Shown here: piece by piece, positions 43,409 to 58,617 of the stretch
Layout of the letters: the number at the start of each line of letters is the position of its first letter
Position numbering within the stretch: position 1 is the stretch's first letter
NCBI RefSeq assembly: GCF_014202315.1
Contig: NZ_JACHGN010000001.1
Span: forward strand, 85,757-149,756
Origin: Thermocatellispora tengchongensis
GTDB lineage: Bacteria > Actinomycetota > Actinomycetes > Streptosporangiales > Streptosporangiaceae
Direction of reading: 5' to 3'
Length of the DNA: 64,000 nt
Notes under the pieces: generated by a model
Seen by the model: only the letters and a program-made list of their open reading frames with translations
The model's database searches: none
Told to the model about the DNA's origin: nothing
Program-made: the position numbers and the translations under genes

Positions 43409-44143
43409 ATGTCCAAGATCCTCACCGTCGAGGCCAAGCTGTTCCTGCGTGAGCCCGCCGCGCTGCTGTTCGCCCTGCTGCTCCCGCTCGTGCTGCTGCT
43501 CGGCCTGGGCAGCCTTCCCCGCTTCCAGGAGGCGGTGCCCGAGCTGGGCGGGCAGCGGATCATCGACACGCACTTCCCGTCCATGATGATGCTGCTCGGG
43601 CTGATCACGCTGGCGTTCACCGTCATGCCGGCAACGCTGGCGACGTACCGGGAGAGCGGGGTGCTGCGCCGCATGTCCACCACCCCGGTGCGGGCCGGGC
43701 GGCTCCTCACCGCACAACTGCTGATCAACGTCGTGGTCGCGGTGCTGGCCTCGACGATCCTGACCGTGCTCGGGTGGGCGGTGCTGGACATCGGCCTGCC
43801 GCGCGAGCCGCTGGGGTTCGCGGTGTCATTCGTGCTCGGCGGCGCCTCCCTGTTCGCGCTCGGGCTGCTGATCGCCTCGATCTCGCCCACGGCCAAGGCG
43901 GCGCCGGGCATCGGCACCGTGCTCATGTTCCCCCTGATGTTCATCAGCGGGATGTGGGTGCCCCGCGAGAGCATGCCCGAAGTGCTGCGCCAGATCGGCG
44001 ACTTCCTGCCCGTGGCACCCTTCGGCCAGGCCCTGCGCGACACCTGGGCCGGGCACGCGCCCAACCCCCGGGACCTCGTGGTGATGGCGGCCACCGTGCT
44101 CATCGCCGGTGGGGCCGCCGCCCGGTTGTTCCGCTGGGAATAA
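43409..44143 (+). CDS. ABC-2 type permease
   Basis: A 244-aa protein with six TM helices, starting ILTVEAKLFLREPAALLFALLLPLVLLL, with FTVMPATLATYRESGVLRRMSTTPV (the conserved amphipathic EF-like region) and FPLMFISGMWVPRESMPEVLRQIGDFLPVAPF. Partner of the ATPase 23 nt upstream; the pair likely exports a lipid, antibiotic or peptide. ATG 43409 with GCGGAG upstream. Confidence 0.95.
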   Translation: MSKILTVEAKLFLREPAALLFALLLPLVLLLGLGSLPRFQEAVPELGGQRIIDTHFPSMMMLLGLITLAFTVMPATLATYRESGVLRRMSTTPVRAGRLLTAQLLINVVVAVLASTILTVLGWAVLDIGLPREPLGFAVSFVLGGASLFALGLLIASISPTAKAAPGIGTVLMFPLMFISGMWVPRESMPEVLRQIGDFLPVAPFGQALRDTWAGHAPNPRDLVVMAATVLIAGGAAARLFRWE

Positions 44144-44147
44144 ATTT

Positions 44148-44177
44148 TTGACCACTCGTTCTCGTATGAGGTAGGGT
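44148..44177 (+). promoter_or_regulatory. Promoter of the TetR-MFS-SDR operon
   Basis: -35 TTGACC (44148-44153), 18-nt spacer, -10 TAGGGT (44172-44177), then 7 nt CGATGCC and the ATG at 44185. The same 7-nt spacer CGATGCC precedes the ABC gene at 42477. A leaderless transcript is expected. Confidence 0.72.
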
Positions 44178-44184
44178 CGATGCC

Positions 44185-44760
44185 ATGGCGAGGACGAAGG
44201 AGTTCGATCCCGAGGCCGCCCTGAGGGCGGCCTTGGAGCTGTTCTGGGAGCGCGGTTACGAGGCGACCTCGATGGCCGACCTGGTCGAACACCTCGGCAT
44301 CGCGCGGGCCAGCCTGTATTCCACCTTCGGCGGCAAGCACGAGCTGTACATGAAGGCGCTGTACGCCTACACCGAGGCGCGCGACGTCGATCCGATCGCG
44401 ATGCTGGCCCAGCCGGGGCCCACGCTGCCGGCCGTGCGCGCGCTGATCGAGCTGTACACCGAGGAGTCGGTGAACGAGCCGCGCGGATGCATGATCGTGA
44501 ACGCGGCGGCCGAGATGCTGCCCGGCGACCGCACCGTGGCCAGGTTCGTCGAGGCCAACTGGGCGGCGCTGGAGGCCGCCCTGACCACGGCGTTCATCCG
44601 GGCCCGCGCCCAGGGCGAGCTGCCCGAGGGGCGCGACCCGCAGGCGCTGGCCCGATTCGTCCTCGTCTTCCTCCAGGGACTGAAGGTCATGGCCAAGGGC
44701 TCCCCCGACCCGGCCAGGCTGAGGCAGGCCGCCGCCCAGGCGCTGTCCATGCTCTCCTGA
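44185..44760 (+). CDS. TetR-family transcriptional regulator
   Basis: A 191-aa protein: MARTKEFDPEAALRAALELFWERGYEATSMADL, LGIARASLYSTFGGKHELYMKAL, and the CMIVNAAAEM segment typical of the YxaF/LmrA-like branch that controls MFS pumps and oxidoreductases. ATG 44185 is the first codon of the probable leaderless mRNA. Head of a likely operon with the MFS exporter (30 nt after its stop) and SDR. Confidence 0.92.
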   Translation: MARTKEFDPEAALRAALELFWERGYEATSMADLVEHLGIARASLYSTFGGKHELYMKALYAYTEARDVDPIAMLAQPGPTLPAVRALIELYTEESVNEPRGCMIVNAAAEMLPGDRTVARFVEANWAALEAALTTAFIRARAQGELPEGRDPQALARFVLVFLQGLKVMAKGSPDPARLRQAAAQALSMLS

Positions 44761-51784: not shown

Positions 51785-52828
51785 TCACCCCACCGGCACC
51801 CCGCAGGCGCGGCGGAACCCGGCGTAGATCCCGTTGAGCCCCATCGCCTCGCGCATGTCGTGCACGGTCTGCCGGACCACGGCCCGCGTGCGCTCGGTGC
51901 CCTCCACGATCAACCGCTCCACGAAGCCGTCGCGCGCCTCGTACTCGGCCCGCCGCTCCCGCATCGGCTCCAGGAACGCGTTGATCGCCGCGGCCAGCTT
52001 GGTCTTCACCTCGACGTCGCCGACCCGGCCGGCGCGGTAGCGCTCCTTGAGATCGGCCACCTCGGCCCGGTCGGCGTTGAACGCGTCGTGGTAGACGAAC
52101 ACCGGGTTGCCCTCGACCCGGCCAGGGATGTCGGCCCTGACCCGGTTCGGGTCGGTGTACATCGCCATGACCTTCCGGCGCACCTCCTCCGCGGAGTCCG
52201 ACAGGTAGATGACGTTCCCGATGCTCTTGCTCATCTTGGCCTGGCCGTCCGTGCCGACCAGCGTGGGCACCTCACCCGGCACCAGCTCGGGCACCGGGAA
52301 CGTCTCGCCGTACAGGGCGTTGAACCGGCGCGCGATCTCCCGCGCCACCTCGACGTGCGCCGCGTTGTCCTTGCCGACCGGCACCGCGTGCGCCTTCACG
52401 CACAGGATGTCCGCGGCCTGGAGCACCGGGTAGCCGAGCAGGCCGTACGGCATCTCCTCCTTGCCCGCGTCGCGCGCCATGTCCTTCAGGCTCGGGATGC
52501 GCTGCAACCGCGGCACCGTCACCAGGTTCTGCAGCAGCGTGTTGATCTCCGCGACCTCGGGGATCGCCGACTGGAGGTAGAACACCGACAGCTCCGGGTC
52601 CAGCCCCGCGGCCAGCCCGTCCAGCACCATCTCGCGGGCGCGCGCTCCCGCCGCCGCGATCTCCTCGCGGCTGTTCTTCGTGGTCAGCATGTGCAGGTCG
52701 GCGATGATGAAATAGCTCTCGTACGCCCGCTGCAACGCGCGCCGGTTCACGATGCTGCCCACGTAGTGGCCGAGGTGAAGCCGCCCGGTCGGCCGGTCGC
52801 CGGTCAGCATCCGCTGCTTGGTCGTCAT
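51785..52828 (-). CDS. trpS: Tryptophanyl-tRNA synthetase under attenuation control
   Basis: A 347-aa class Ic synthetase: TGDRPTGRLHLGHYVGSI (HIGH-like), AADILCVKAHAVPVGKDNAAH, KMSKS loop GQAKMSKSIGNVIYLSD and the C-terminal YAGFRRACG. Joins Trp to tRNA-Trp. The leader upstream encodes a Trp-rich peptide and competing hairpins, so expression should rise when charged tRNA-Trp is low. A Trp-inducible, indolmycin-resistant second TrpRS with ribosome-mediated attenuation is known in Streptomyces coelicolor; this could be the equivalent, with another trpS elsewhere. ATG 52828 with GGGAGACC upstream. Confidence 0.97.
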   Translation of the reverse strand: MTTKQRMLTGDRPTGRLHLGHYVGSIVNRRALQRAYESYFIIADLHMLTTKNSREEIAAAGARAREMVLDGLAAGLDPELSVFYLQSAIPEVAEINTLLQNLVTVPRLQRIPSLKDMARDAGKEEMPYGLLGYPVLQAADILCVKAHAVPVGKDNAAHVEVAREIARRFNALYGETFPVPELVPGEVPTLVGTDGQAKMSKSIGNVIYLSDSAEEVRRKVMAMYTDPNRVRADIPGRVEGNPVFVYHDAFNADRAEVADLKERYRAGRVGDVEVKTKLAAAINAFLEPMRERRAEYEARDGFVERLIVEGTERTRAVVRQTVHDMREAMGLNGIYAGFRRACGVPVG

Positions 52829-52998
52829 CAGGTCTCCCGTGTGTGGGGGCCACCCCGCGGACAGGACCCGGCGACGACGAACGGGCCGTCCGAAGGGACG
52901 GCCCGCGGTTCATGCGCGTCTCGGCGACCGTCCTAGGACGGCCACCACCAGTTCTGCGAACGCAGACGCGACGCGCGGCAGGTCATGAATCCACTGTA
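52829..52998 (-). promoter_or_regulatory. trpS leader with ribosome-mediated attenuator
   Basis: On the minus strand: -10 TACAGT (52993-52998), leader peptide ORF 52986-52933, then four segments: 1 CCGTCC (52941-52936, right after the Trp codons), 2 GGACGG (52933-52928), 3 CGGGCCGTCC (52905-52896), 4 GGACGGCCCG (52891-52882). 1:2 and 3:4 (terminator, CTTC loop, followed by TTCGTCGTC) exclude 2:3 (antiterminator). A ribosome stalled at the Trp codons would mask 1 and free 2 to pair with 3. Confidence 0.88.
52933..52986 (-). CDS. trpS leader peptide with three consecutive Trp codons
   Basis: 17-residue ORF MTCRASRLRSQNWWWPS. The three TGG codons are followed by CCG, TCC and TAG. The first base of its ATG is in the stop codon of the desaturase gene (ATGA), and a TACAGT box 6 nt upstream would also allow a leaderless start. 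Sensor of tryptophanyl-tRNA supply. Confidence 0.88.
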   Translation of the reverse strand: MTCRASRLRSQNWWWPS

Positions 52999-54041
52999 CC
53001 CGAGCGCAGCGGCGCGCCGATCTCGTGCATGTGCCGCAGCGCCCGCGCGTACGACTCGATCAGCCCGCACTCCTGGTAGTCCACCCCGATCTCCGCGCAG
53101 TATGCCCGCACGATCGGCCGCGCCCGGCGCAGGTTCGGCGCCGGCATGCTCGGGAACAGGTGGTGCTCGATCTGGTGGTTCAGCCCGCCGAGCGCGATGT
53201 CCATCGCGAGCCCGCCGGTGACGTTCCTGGAGGTGAGCACCTGGCGGCGCAGGAAGTCCAGCCGGTCGTCGCCGGTGAGCATCGGCATGCCCTTGTGGTT
53301 GGGCGCGAACGTGCAGCCCAGGTAGACGCCGAACACCGCCTGGTTCACCGCCACGAACGCCAGCGCCATCCCGAACGGCATCGCGCTGAACACGGCCACC
53401 AGGAACAGCACGACGTGCCCGGCCAGCAGCGCCCCCTCGATCCCGCGCCGGCGATACCCCGGCCGCGCCAGCGCGCGGAAGCTGCTCACGTGCAGGTTCA
53501 CCCCTTCCAGGGTGAGCAGCGGGAAGAACAGGTACGCCTGCCACCGCCCGATGAAGCGCGACACCCCGCGGCTGCGCTCCGCCTGGCCCCGCGACCACAC
53601 CAGGACCTCCGGGCTCACGTCCGGGTCGCGCTCCTCGTGGTTGGGGTTGGCGTGGTGCCGGGTGTGCTTGTCGGTCCACCAGCCGTACGCCATGCCGATC
53701 AGCAGGTTGCCCACCAGCAGCCCGGCGATCTCGGTGGGGCGGCGGGTGCGGAACACCTGACGGTGCGCGAGGTCGTGCGCCACCAGGGCGACCTGGGCGA
53801 ACACCACCGCGAGGAACGCCGCGACCGCGAGCTGCGCCCACGAGTCGCCGACCAGGAACACCGCGGCCCAGCCCCCGGCGTACAGGGCCCCGACGACGGC
53901 GAACCTCACGGCGTAGTACCCCGGCCGGCGATCCATCAGCCCGGCCTGGGCGATCCGCCGCGACAACCGCGCGAAATCGCTGCCCCTCGTTCCGGTCGCA
54001 TCTGGTCGGTCGGGCGGGTCGAGCGTGACAGTGCTGGACAC
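52983..54041 (-). CDS. Membrane fatty acid desaturase
   Basis: A 352-aa di-iron membrane desaturase: three His boxes HDLAHRQ, HTRHHANPN and HQIEHHLFP, with four TM helices. The last box with Gln (QIEHH) is the front-end or acyl-CoA type. Acts on acyl chains with O2 and an electron donor. The GTG at 54041 has GAGGAG 4 nt upstream; the GTG at 54053 is an alternative. A 36-bp region with 8-bp inverted arms (54061-54096) lies upstream. Its stop overlaps the trpS leader ATG. Confidence 0.93.
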   Translation of the reverse strand: MSSTVTLDPPDRPDATGTRGSDFARLSRRIAQAGLMDRRPGYYAVRFAVVGALYAGGWAAVFLVGDSWAQLAVAAFLAVVFAQVALVAHDLAHRQVFRTRRPTEIAGLLVGNLLIGMAYGWWTDKHTRHHANPNHEERDPDVSPEVLVWSRGQAERSRGVSRFIGRWQAYLFFPLLTLEGVNLHVSSFRALARPGYRRRGIEGALLAGHVVLFLVAVFSAMPFGMALAFVAVNQAVFGVYLGCTFAPNHKGMPMLTGDDRLDFLRRQVLTSRNVTGGLAMDIALGGLNHQIEHHLFPSMPAPNLRRARPIVRAYCAEIGVDYQECGLIESYARALRHMHEIGAPLRSGTVDS

Positions 54042-54060
54042 GGGTCTCCTCACGTCGATG

Positions 54061-54154: not shown

Positions 54155-55006
54155 CTACCATGCACCCCCATCGACGGCCGCGACCAGCTCATCCAGCGAC
54201 CGGATCACCGTGATCCCGTCATCACCGACACCGTGCCCCCCAGTATGCCCATCGGGACGCCCGTCGCCGTGCCCATCGCCGCGCCTCTCGCCGTGCCCGT
54301 CGCCCTGCCTCTCGCCGTGCCCATCGCCCTGCCTCTCGCTGTGCCCGTCGCCGTGCCTCTCGCCGTGCCCGTCGCGGACCAGCCAGTACGCCCGCAGCCC
54401 GGCGTCGCGCGCCCCGAGCGCGTCCACGTCGTACCGGTCGCCGACATAGGCCACCTCGTACGCCTCCAGCCCCAGCGCCGCGCACCCCGCCAGGAAGATG
54501 CTCGGATCGGGCTTGGCCACGCCATGCTCGCCCGAGCAGACCAGCGCGTCGCCGAAGTGACCGAGCAGCCCCACGGCCCGCAGCTTCCTGCACTGGTGCG
54601 GCAGCGAGGAGTTCGACACCACCCCCAGCCGCACCCGGCCCGCGAGCGCCTCCAGGGCGGGCAGCGCGTCCGGGAACACCCCGTACGCCGCCTCGACCTC
54701 CTCCCGGACCTCCCGGTACCCCGCGAACCACGCCGCGGCCTGCTCCGGCGACGTCGCCCGCCCCGCATGGGCCAGGAACCGCCGGGCGCGCGCCACCTGC
54801 TGCCCCGCGAAGGTCAGCTCCCCGGCCAGGAACCGGGGGTACTCCTCCTCCATGATCCGGTGCCAGAGCGCCACCGCGTCGTCCGGCGTGCCGAACGCCT
54901 CCAGCATTCCCTCGGCCGCGAGGTACCGCAGCAGCCCGGCCCGCTCGCACGCCGAATAGGCGAACAGCGTGTCATCGACGTCGAACAGCACCCCGCGCAC
55001 CGTCAT
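54155..55006 (-). CDS. HAD-superfamily hydrolase with His-rich repeat insertion
   Basis: A 283-aa HAD phosphatase. Motif I DVDDTLF (Asp9, Asp11), helical cap, motif II VVSNSS, Lys in GVAKPDPSIF and acidic motif YVGDRYDVDALGARDAG. Between AYWLVRD and ITVIRSLDELVA, at residues ~212-260, a repetitive His/Gly/Asp/Glu/Arg insertion is encoded by a 24-bp array. The catalytic core is intact, so the enzyme may be active with an added metal-binding tail. ATG 55006 is 2 nt after the frameshifted gene's stop. Confidence 0.92.
   Translation of the reverse strand: MTVRGVLFDVDDTLFAYSACERAGLLRYLAAEGMLEAFGTPDDAVALWHRIMEEEYPRFLAGELTFAGQQVARARRFLAHAGRATSPEQAAAWFAGYREVREEVEAAYGVFPDALPALEALAGRVRLGVVSNSSLPHQCRKLRAVGLLGHFGDALVCSGEHGVAKPDPSIFLAGCAALGLEAYEVAYVGDRYDVDALGARDAGLRAYWLVRDGHGERHGDGHSERQGDGHGERQGDGHGERRGDGHGDGRPDGHTGGHGVGDDGITVIRSLDELVAAVDGGAW
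54230..54373 (-). repeat. 24-bp in-frame repeat inside the HAD gene
   Basis: Approximately five to six 24-bp units encode GDGHGERQ-like octapeptides (HGERHGDG, HSERQGDG, HGERQGDG, HGERRGDG, HGDGRPDG). On the + strand they appear as CTCGCCGTGCCC-type half-units. The number of units is likely variable between strains. Confidence 0.85.
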
Positions 55007-56202: not shown

Positions 56203-58617
56203 TCAGTGCGCGGCCATGTCCACGAACCGGCTGTAGTGCCCCTGGAACGCCACGGTCACCGTCGCCGTGGGCCCGTTACGGTGCTTGGCCACGATCAGGT
56301 CGGCCTCCCCGGCCCGCGGTGACTCCCGCTCGTACGCGTCCTCCCGATGCAGCAGGATCACCATGTCCGCGTCCTGCTCAATAGATCCGGATTCGCGAAG
56401 GTCGCTCACTTGGGGGCGTTTGTCGGTTCGCTGTTCCGGGCCGCGGTTGAGCTGGGAGATCGCGATCACCGGGACCTCCAGCTCCTTGGCCAGCAGCTTC
56501 AGCGCACGGGAGATCTCCGAGACCTCCTGCTGGCGGCTCTCGGTCTTCTTCGGCGAGCTCATGAGCTGGAGGTAGTCCACGATCACGAAGCGCAGGTCGT
56601 GGCGCTGCTTGAGTCGTCGGCACTTGGCCCGGATCTCCATCATCGACATGTTGGGCGAGTCGTCGATGTACAGCGGCGCCTCGGCGACCTCGCTCATCCG
56701 CCGGGCGAGGCGAGTCCAGTCGTCGTCGTTCATCATCCCCGAGCGCATGGTGTGCAACGGCACCCGCGCCTCGGCCGACAACAACCGCATGGTGATCTCG
56801 TTGCGGGACATCTCCAGCGAGAAGATGACCGTGGTCATCCCATGCTTGATCGCCGCGGACCTGGCGAAGTCCAGCCCCAGCGTGCTGTTGTGCGTCGGAA
56901 TCCAGGTCGGACCGGCGAGGTAGAGGTGGTGTTCGTTGTCCACCTCGACGCACCGGACGGGCACCGACTCGACCGGACGGATGTCGGTGATGTAGCGATA
57001 GCGCGCCGCCGGATGCGCGCCGGTGTTCTGCCGCGCGGCCTTCCTGGGCAGCCGGAACACCTTGTCGGCGGGGGTGAAGGTGATCGCGTAGCCGATGGGG
57101 CCCGCCTGCGTACGACCCTCGGCCCGATCGGTGGTCATCGTGGCCTGGTAGCCCAGGCTGAGGATCAACTCCCAGGCGTCGTGCGCGAGCCGCTCGCCGG
57201 TCACCGCGAGCCGTACGGTGCCGCTCGGGTCGATGTGGCCGACGCCGGTGTCGAGCAGACCGGCCAGGAGCGCCCGCCGCTGCCGCTCCGACGCGCGCAG
57301 GTACGCGAGCGGGATGTGCTTGTCACCGAGCACCCCCATACGGCGCAGAACCGCCTCAACACCCCCCTGATCATCGCGGCATCCCCCGCAGAGGGGGTCG
57401 GGCTCGGGGAAGTCGAGCCGGTAGAGGATGTCGCCCTGGCGTACGGCCCGCAGGCCCTCCTGCTCGATCTCGCTGACGATCTCAGGATCGGCGGTGGTGA
57501 AGCGGGCCTCGTCGCTGTGGCCCTCGCCCAGCCACACACCCAGCGTGTACGGCGGCAGCGGCAGCTCGCGTTCCTCCACCGCGAGGGGCGCGGCGACCGG
57601 GACGCCGTGGTCGAGCCGCCGATCCTCCGTTCGGCAGCGGAGTGTCGCGGCGATCTCGGCCGTGGTCTTGACGGAGGCGAATGTCGCCTGGTCCCGCCCC
57701 AAGGCAACCCGCTGGGCGGGCCCGCGGAAATCGCCGGTCTCGGTGAGCCACTGGTGCTCGGCGTCGGCCGCGATCACCGTGCCGTCGCTGAACTCGACCT
57801 CGTAACAGGGCCGGCCGACCATGACGCCGGTCGCCGCCACGACCCGGGTCGGCTTACCGTCGGCGCCGATGAGGTGGTCGCCCACCTGCACCTCGCCCAT
57901 CGTCGTCCACCCGTCGGGCGTGGGCAGGGGCGTGTCGAGCGCGAGGGCCTTGCCGATGGCCGGACGCGCCGCGACGACGATCATCTGGCCGGGGTGGAGG
58001 CCGTTGGTGAGGGCGTCGAGATCCTGGAAGCCGGTGGGGACTCCGACCATCTGACCGGCGCGGCTGCCGATGGCCTCGATCTCGTCCAGGGCGCCGGGCA
58101 TGATCTCGGACAGAGGAAGGTAGTCCTCGGACGTGCGGCGCTCGGTGACCTTGTAGATCTCGGCCTGGGCGCGGTCCACGAGGTCGTCGACCTCTTCGTT
58201 CTGGCCGCCGTAGCCGTAGGAGACGATGCGGGTGCCGGCCTCGATGAGGCGGCGCAGGACGGCCTGCTCACGCACGATCTTCGCGTAGTAGCCGGCGTTG
58301 GCCGCGGTCGGGACGACGGCGGTCAGGGTGTGCACGTACGCGCCACCGCCGACCCGCGCGACCTGGCCGCGCTTCTGCAACTCGTCCATGACCGTGACGG
58401 CGTCGGCGGGCTCGCCCCGGCCGTAGAGGTCGGTGATGATGTCGTAGATGATCTGGTGGGCGGGACGGTAGAAGTCGTCGGACCTGAGCACCTCGACGAC
58501 GTCCGCGATGGCGTCCTTGGACAGCAGCATGCCCCCGAGGACGGACTGCTCGGCCTCGATGTTGTTCGGGGGTGTCCGCTCGAACCCCGCTCCGAAGACC
58601 GGCGCCTCTTCGTCCAC
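56203..58617 (-). CDS. dnaB: Replicative DNA helicase DnaB with an intein
   Basis: An 804-aa precursor. N-extein residues 1-223 (PPNNIEAEQSVLGGMLLSKD, helicase N domain, linker, AARPAIGK), intein 224-577, C-extein 578-804 (STLGLDFARSAAIKHG, MRSGMMNDDDW, VIVDYLQLMSSP Walker B, QQEVSEISRALKLLAKELEV, RESGSIEQDADMVILLHR). After splicing a normal 450-aa helicase results. The intein interrupts Walker A between GK and ST. The GTG at 58617 is the start. Drives replication fork unwinding. Upstream lies a cluster of DnaA boxes. Confidence 0.97.
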   Translation of the reverse strand: MDEEAPVFGAGFERTPPNNIEAEQSVLGGMLLSKDAIADVVEVLRSDDFYRPAHQIIYDIITDLYGRGEPADAVTVMDELQKRGQVARVGGGAYVHTLTAVVPTAANAGYYAKIVREQAVLRRLIEAGTRIVSYGYGGQNEEVDDLVDRAQAEIYKVTERRTSEDYLPLSEIMPGALDEIEAIGSRAGQMVGVPTGFQDLDALTNGLHPGQMIVVAARPAIGKALALDTPLPTPDGWTTMGEVQVGDHLIGADGKPTRVVAATGVMVGRPCYEVEFSDGTVIAADAEHQWLTETGDFRGPAQRVALGRDQATFASVKTTAEIAATLRCRTEDRRLDHGVPVAAPLAVEERELPLPPYTLGVWLGEGHSDEARFTTADPEIVSEIEQEGLRAVRQGDILYRLDFPEPDPLCGGCRDDQGGVEAVLRRMGVLGDKHIPLAYLRASERQRRALLAGLLDTGVGHIDPSGTVRLAVTGERLAHDAWELILSLGYQATMTTDRAEGRTQAGPIGYAITFTPADKVFRLPRKAARQNTGAHPAARYRYITDIRPVESVPVRCVEVDNEHHLYLAGPTWIPTHNSTLGLDFARSAAIKHGMTTVIFSLEMSRNEITMRLLSAEARVPLHTMRSGMMNDDDWTRLARRMSEVAEAPLYIDDSPNMSMMEIRAKCRRLKQRHDLRFVIVDYLQLMSSPKKTESRQQEVSEISRALKLLAKELEVPVIAISQLNRGPEQRTDKRPQVSDLRESGSIEQDADMVILLHREDAYERESPRAGEADLIVAKHRNGPTATVTVAFQGHYSRFVDMAAH
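56887..57948 (-). other. Class 3 intein in DnaB, with degenerate homing endonuclease
   Basis: 354 residues from A1 (ALALDTPLPTPDGW) to N354 (TWIPTHN), followed by Ser+1. The first residue is Ala rather than Cys or Ser, so the classic start step is impossible. The class 3 triad is present: W67 in AEHQWLTE (block B), C333 in VRCVEVD (block F), T352 in PTHN (block G). A two-motif DOD endonuclease domain lies at ~130-300: LGVWLGEG keeps an acidic residue (E142), but LAGLLDTGVG has Gly235 where the catalytic Asp belongs. Confidence 0.93.

Follow-up and report, generated by a model that had tools for sequence, protein, structure and literature searches.

The auxiliary tryptophanyl-tRNA synthetase (TrpRS) gene trpS in the 64,000-nucleotide stretch of Thermocatellispora tengchongensis DNA analyzed here (the window) is preceded by what we take, with high confidence, to be a ribosome-mediated transcriptional attenuator, and low levels of charged tRNA-Trp very probably turn the gene on. 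The gene lies on the minus strand at 51785-52828, with its ATG at 52828 and a Shine-Dalgarno-like GGGAG at 52838-52834, and its product matches TIGR00233 at 288 bits (cut-off 176.75). A search for a second trpS, which the earlier note had suggested, was successful, as the 11.65-Mb genome holds two trpS genes; the housekeeping copy, on contig C9, is 33% identical to the window copy and has neither a WW leader upstream nor a match to the leader models described below.

Leader ORF, Putative Promoter and Competing Hairpins

A 17-residue leader ORF with three Trp codons had been reported upstream of trpS, and it is present on the minus strand at that place. The ORF, MTCRASRLRSQNWWWPS, spans 17 codons from ATG to TAG (52986-52933, with the TAG at 52935-52933) and ends in Trp-Trp-Trp-Pro-Ser, with the three consecutive Trp codons, the putative stall site, at 52950-52942. 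It is the only ORF of ≤25 codons containing Trp-Trp-Trp in the 64 kb, where a first-order Markov simulation predicts 0.1, and none of the short WWW ORFs simulated in this way had a TANNNT box 6-7 nt upstream. Here such a box, the -10-like promoter hexamer TACAGT (52998-52993, minus strand), forms the first bases of the interval originally noted and stands 6 nt before the leader ATG, which implies a transcript predicted to be leaderless, with its 5' end at or near that ATG. The ATG overlaps the TGA stop codon of an upstream fatty-acid-desaturase-like gene (52983-54053, minus strand; weak desaturase/hydroxylase matches below cut-off), so the promoter would fall inside the 3' end of that gene, and the desaturase promoter is a further possible source of trpS transcripts. 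Translation of the leader through coupling to the desaturase stop codon was considered and rejected, as the ATG/TGA overlap is absent in the related locus L085 and there is no desaturase in L084. Also on the minus strand of the window are a HAD-like hydrolase ORF (54155-55006), which toward its C-terminus carries a Gly-His-Gly-Glu-Arg-type repeat in tandem (GHGERQGDGHGERQGDGHGERRGDGHGDG), and a DnaB-like replicative helicase ORF (56203-58617) with an apparent intein, the insert following ARPAIGKA... and ending HLYLAGPTWIPTHN.

The four alternating CCGTCC/GGACGG segments that had been described as able to pair 1:2, 2:3 or 3:4 are all found on the minus strand, at 52941-52936 (segment 1, CCGTCC), 52933-52928 (segment 2, GGACGG), 52901-52896 (segment 3, CCGTCC) and 52891-52886 (segment 4, GGACGG). 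Since the hexamer GGRCGG is not enriched by itself in the window (310 found vs. 342 expected), the weight of the observation rests on the arrangement and its conservation; the 170-nt region folds with a z-score of -2.44 relative to dinucleotide shuffles. Hairpin 1:2, a 10-bp protector supported by folding and covariation (52946-52923, minus strand), overlaps the last Trp codons and the leader stop codon. The Trp codons had been placed directly before segment 1, and this detail needs correction: codons 2 and 3 are inside the 5' arm of the hairpin (52946-52937, pairing with 52932-52923). An additional element missed in the earlier note is an outer helix that closes the protector domain (52976-52970 with 52920-52914, minus strand), its 5' strand in the leader coding region, and the whole domain (outer helix plus 1:2) is predicted at -38.2 kcal/mol. 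Compensatory changes in the outer helix, read by hand and independent of the model-fitted alignment introduced below, include CGCGCGTC/GACGCGCG vs. CGCACATC/GATGTGCG in L087, and also CGCGTGTC/GATACGCG. Alignment and folding further place a small hairpin (52966-52953, minus strand) in the genome-specific extra part of the leader ORF, which has 17 codons here compared with 11 in the shortest relatives.

With a ribosome on Trp codon 1 masking segment 1 and segment 4 still unmade, the candidate antiterminator 2:3 (52933-52926 with 52903-52896, minus strand) is predicted at -16.1 kcal/mol, and the candidate terminator 3:4, an 11-bp GC-rich stem (52906-52881, minus strand) with the tail UCGUCGUCGC, at -23.6 kcal/mol. 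The predicted energies fit the proposed scheme of mutually exclusive folds, 1:2 plus 3:4 or else 2:3, in all six leaders known for this trpS type. There is no U-tract after 3:4, a T-tract terminator scan does not report this hairpin, and Rfam has no family in the region at gathering cut-offs.

Conservation and Covariation Among Relatives

The window TrpRS type (≥72% identity) occurs in 11 of 299 genomes of the same family. Six carry the leader, namely the window's own genome, two others (G009 and G012) and three corresponding to Spongiactinospora, the closest named relatives and members of the family Streptosporangiaceae. The homologues of MTCRASRLRSQNWWWPS read MNRVSSLNWWWPS, MIRTPCRNWWWPS, MIRASNWWWPS, MIRASSWWWPS and MIRTSSWWWPS. 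In all six loci a TANNNT -10 box stands 6-7 nt ahead of the leader start codon, and the WWWPS ending with its three invariant Trp codons is retained, as are the hairpins; five of the six have the desaturase-like neighbor, which is absent in L084. Absence of the leader or its Trp codons from close homologues had been named as evidence against an attenuator; both are kept in all five leader-bearing relatives, with strong covariation. In the remaining five genomes no leader was found; one of these (G071) contributes a fragment without the 5' end, and in the four for which upstream DNA was inspected, trpS follows the end of an aminotransferase-like gene. In named genomes, including those of Micromonospora, Kutzneria, Chloroflexi and Spirochaetes, 77 further loci of the window enzyme type were examined, and none shows a WW leader with a -10 box. 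The leaderless window-type genes behind an aminotransferase-like gene end, seen in some Streptosporangiaceae and Micromonosporaceae (L089-L091, L008-L011), possibly belong to a biosynthetic cluster with self-resistance.

We trained a covariance model (R1) on the leaders of three relatives of the window trpS, because MAFFT, given all six leaders, aligns the 3:4 loop and L084 wrongly. R1 matches the window at 62.2 bits (E 2.1e-14), and over the 11.65-Mb genome the window is its single match (E 6.3e-13). In 92 loci it returns 75 matches. The leaders it recovers include most of those of another auxiliary trpS class in the family and also those of Streptomyces TrpRS1-type genes. Across these 75 aligned matches, two-sided changes are found in 26 of 27 pairs (205 cells vs. 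63.6 in shuffles) and 90.9% of cells are paired, compared with 31-53% when the structure is slid, figures that lean toward the modeled structure because the alignment is fitted to R1 and a few rows are opposite-strand palindrome matches. Covariation backs the predicted protector 1:2 and terminator 3:4, the latter being the most conserved helix, with 99.4% of cells paired. The 2:3 pairing is present in 88% of cells and shows no covariation beyond shuffles across the 75 leaders because its columns hardly vary; its conservation is compatible with an antiterminator and does not amount to proof of one. A weak model match on the plus strand of the window (44141-44245) is the start of a TetR-like gene (44185-44760), apparently leaderless with its ATG 7 nt downstream of a -10-like box, and was taken as chance.

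Tryptophan Leaders in Other Genes and Genomes

Another auxiliary TrpRS, ~40% identical to the window type, is held by ~132 of the 299 family genomes (counted from the table). Among 79 fetched loci of this class, 70 have a TANNNT box with a WW leader and five more have a single-W leader, the box being spaced as in the window type in all 75.

A second model (R2), trained on Streptosporangiaceae leaders with those of Streptomyces kept out of the training set, was used to survey 121 family genomes and recovered leaders also before trpD (confirmed by TIGR01245), trpE and further trpS types, indicating that the attenuator design is common to the Trp genes of this family. Before trpD (L304, L305, L308, L309, L311, L314), leaderless WW leaders (MITRLNGWWPAC, MITRLNGWWPVS, MIAYSLQWWPAS and similar) are followed by hairpins. 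The further trpS types (L307, L313, L316, L306) have leaders of their own, such as MKLRSPGLWRAALRRTR, with a single Trp, and VRMICCFLSWWRP, so still more TrpRS lineages have such leaders. In the window's own genome, a predicted attenuator with the leaderless leader MRNQPTLQWWRRF (contig C8 of G000; L191, 2001-2123) precedes an anthranilate synthase gene, trpE (TrpE-clade3 fusion), and no Trp leader was found upstream of trpD. A degenerate promoter plus UGGUGG pattern, which was abandoned with 38 matches in this genome vs. 38 in a reversed control, is too short to include the window leader yet led to that of trpE. Family trpE leaders score 22-26 bits with R2 and ≤17.7 bits with R1, and three loci from Streptomyces-like genomes carry MTTRTCTQLWWAA-type leaders, at 49-50 bits with R2, which are close to the Streptomyces lividans leader MMTRTCTQLWRAA.

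The Auxiliary TrpRS and Its Inhibitor-Site Residues

In the TrpRS tree the window type forms one clade (support 100), inside which the six leader-bearing copies are one group (support 99), and the other sampled members (Micromonospora, Kutzneria, Chloroflexi) are without the leader. An orthologous relationship to S. coelicolor TrpRS1 is not upheld, since the window enzyme belongs to another clade (support 100) and the three rows assigned to the TrpRS1 type from their leaders branch separately.

We examined the indolmycin-binding residues of sensitive enzymes (Gln9, His43, Asp132 and Gln147, numbered on a Bacillus stearothermophilus reference sequence). The window TrpRS has Arg in place of Gln9 and Asn in place of Gln147, with His43 and Asp132 kept; TrpRS1-type rows have Lys in place of Gln9 and keep His43, housekeeping copies keep Gln9, and the ~40% identical auxiliary class has Gln in place of His43. 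A change of His43 to Asn confers resistance in B. stearothermophilus TrpRS (PMC4899734), and auxiliary TrpRS enzymes serve indolmycin resistance in S. coelicolor and S. griseus (PMC6804068, PMC9437257). With two of these residues replaced and His43 kept, the window TrpRS may plausibly resist indolmycin.

Possible Origin of the Auxiliary Enzyme

The window TrpRS was probably acquired horizontally, and the sequences are most simply explained by a leaderless-lineage TrpRS that may have come under a resident-type attenuator. None of the 11 genomes with the window type also has the other auxiliary class, compared with the ~132 of 299 that hold the latter overall, a co-occurrence result that is suggestive only because the lineages are not independent; taken with the leaderless state of the other clade members, this separation from the usual attenuated enzyme suggests a foreign enzyme under a resident attenuator. 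More broadly, the attenuator may be a portable module, with one design common to at least three distantly related TrpRS lineages, and in one Streptosporangiaceae lineage the acquired TrpRS may have displaced the usual auxiliary enzyme, assuming the role of auxiliary trpS along with a resident-type attenuator; taken jointly, we consider these propositions evenly poised between right and wrong.

A different account, concerning origin and not mechanism, is that the attenuator on the window trpS arose by convergence, independently of those of the other auxiliary classes. Any Trp attenuator needs UGG runs and competing GC hairpins, as the R2 scores of the family trpE leaders illustrate, and a leader phylogeny that might have shown donor and recipient was set aside because its 110 columns give a tree that does not resolve, which leaves room for separate origins. 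Leaders of the window type, however, resemble those of the other class in the same family (mean identity 62%) as closely as the latter resemble each other (60%), and more closely than orthologous leaders from other families do (50%), the alignment behind these values having been made to a model whose training set was the window type, and the trpE leaders score clearly lower with R1; we regard convergence as a serious but rather doubtful explanation. Common neighbors do not demonstrate replacement in place either, as none of the sampled loci of the other trpS class has the desaturase beside it. If displacement by an acquired enzyme did occur, the RNA switch was retained while the enzyme beneath it was replaced, and selection would act on inducible spare TrpRS capacity and not on one particular enzyme.

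Proposed Mechanism

The elements observed, the conservation and covariation they show, and the presence of a second trpS lead us to infer a transcription start site, stalling, termination and induction as follows. Transcription would begin at or beside the leader ATG and produce a leaderless mRNA. With ample Trp-tRNA, the ribosome would reach the UAG and cover segment 2, allowing 3:4 to form and ending transcription before trpS; when Trp-tRNA is scarce, because of starvation or because the housekeeping TrpRS is inhibited, it would stall on UGG-UGG-UGG and mask segment 1, segment 2 would then pair with segment 3, and trpS would be transcribed. With no ribosome, the protector domain would form and 3:4 would terminate. 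Induction of a spare TrpRS in response to declining Trp-tRNA is the most likely function, and inhibition of the housekeeping enzyme would be one such occasion.

The lack of a U-tract, a feature shared with S. lividans trpL2, which is described as having no uridine-enriched sequence (PMC8079986), could mean that what stalling governs is termination by Rho or the accessibility of the trpS ribosome-binding site, instead of intrinsic termination at 3:4, but we judge this improbable, as the trpS Shine-Dalgarno sequence is ~40 nt past the hairpin and outside its stem, 3:4 is the helix kept most strictly, and T-rich tails are present in several relatives of the other class (e.g., GGCCTTTTTCTCTTC in L100). 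The idea that the hairpin is only a constitutive terminator of the desaturase transcript and the Trp-rich ORF a product of chance, although in keeping with the overlap of leader ATG and desaturase stop and with the ordinariness of GC-rich hairpins between genes, can be dismissed almost entirely, given that WWWPS and the -10 spacing are kept in six loci with different flanks, that 70 of the 79 loci of another trpS class show the same combination of peptide and hairpins, and that the simulation yields no short WWW ORF with a -10 box.

Comparison With Known Systems

Attenuation of trpS was already known in Streptomyces, as the earlier note had stated for a second trpS of S. coelicolor, and the literature agrees: Seliverstov et al. 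(2005; PMC1262725) predict attenuation of trp operons and of a second trpS in Streptomyces, with a candidate classical attenuator before S. avermitilis trpS2, and a paper by Vecchione and Sello (2010, J Bacteriol 192:3565, cited in PMC4787780) names ribosome-mediated attenuation of an auxiliary trpS in its title. The S. lividans leader trpL2, MMTRTCTQLWRAA, is upstream of trpS and transcribed leaderless (PMC8079986). The S. coelicolor/S. lividans TrpRS1 and trpL2 system shares with the window a leaderless leader with Trp codons, two hairpins, a poor U-tract and an auxiliary trpS, whereas the enzymes belong to different clades with 32-35% identity, and the leader has three Trp codons in the window, one in S. 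lividans and two in the sampled Streptomyces-like genomes. The ~40% identical auxiliary class (e.g., L105, MTCMCRGWWPS) has the same -10 spacing, a WWPS ending, the hairpins and a match to R1, but differs in its TrpRS clade, its usual two Trp codons and its Gln in place of His43. The trpE attenuator of the same genome, MRNQPTLQWWRRF, likewise combines a leaderless Trp leader with competing hairpins, although it scores 22 bits with R2, has no R1 match and controls anthranilate synthase. Collectively, trpS attenuation, described in a few Streptomyces, extends over a large soil-actinobacterial family, with a covariance model recovering leaders of three enzyme types, and the leader can serve as a sequence marker of TrpRS genes that are inducible and possibly inhibitor resistant. 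The window holds a further case of known trpS attenuation, found here in a different family and with a TrpRS of a different lineage, and its unexpected part is the enzyme and not the type of switch.
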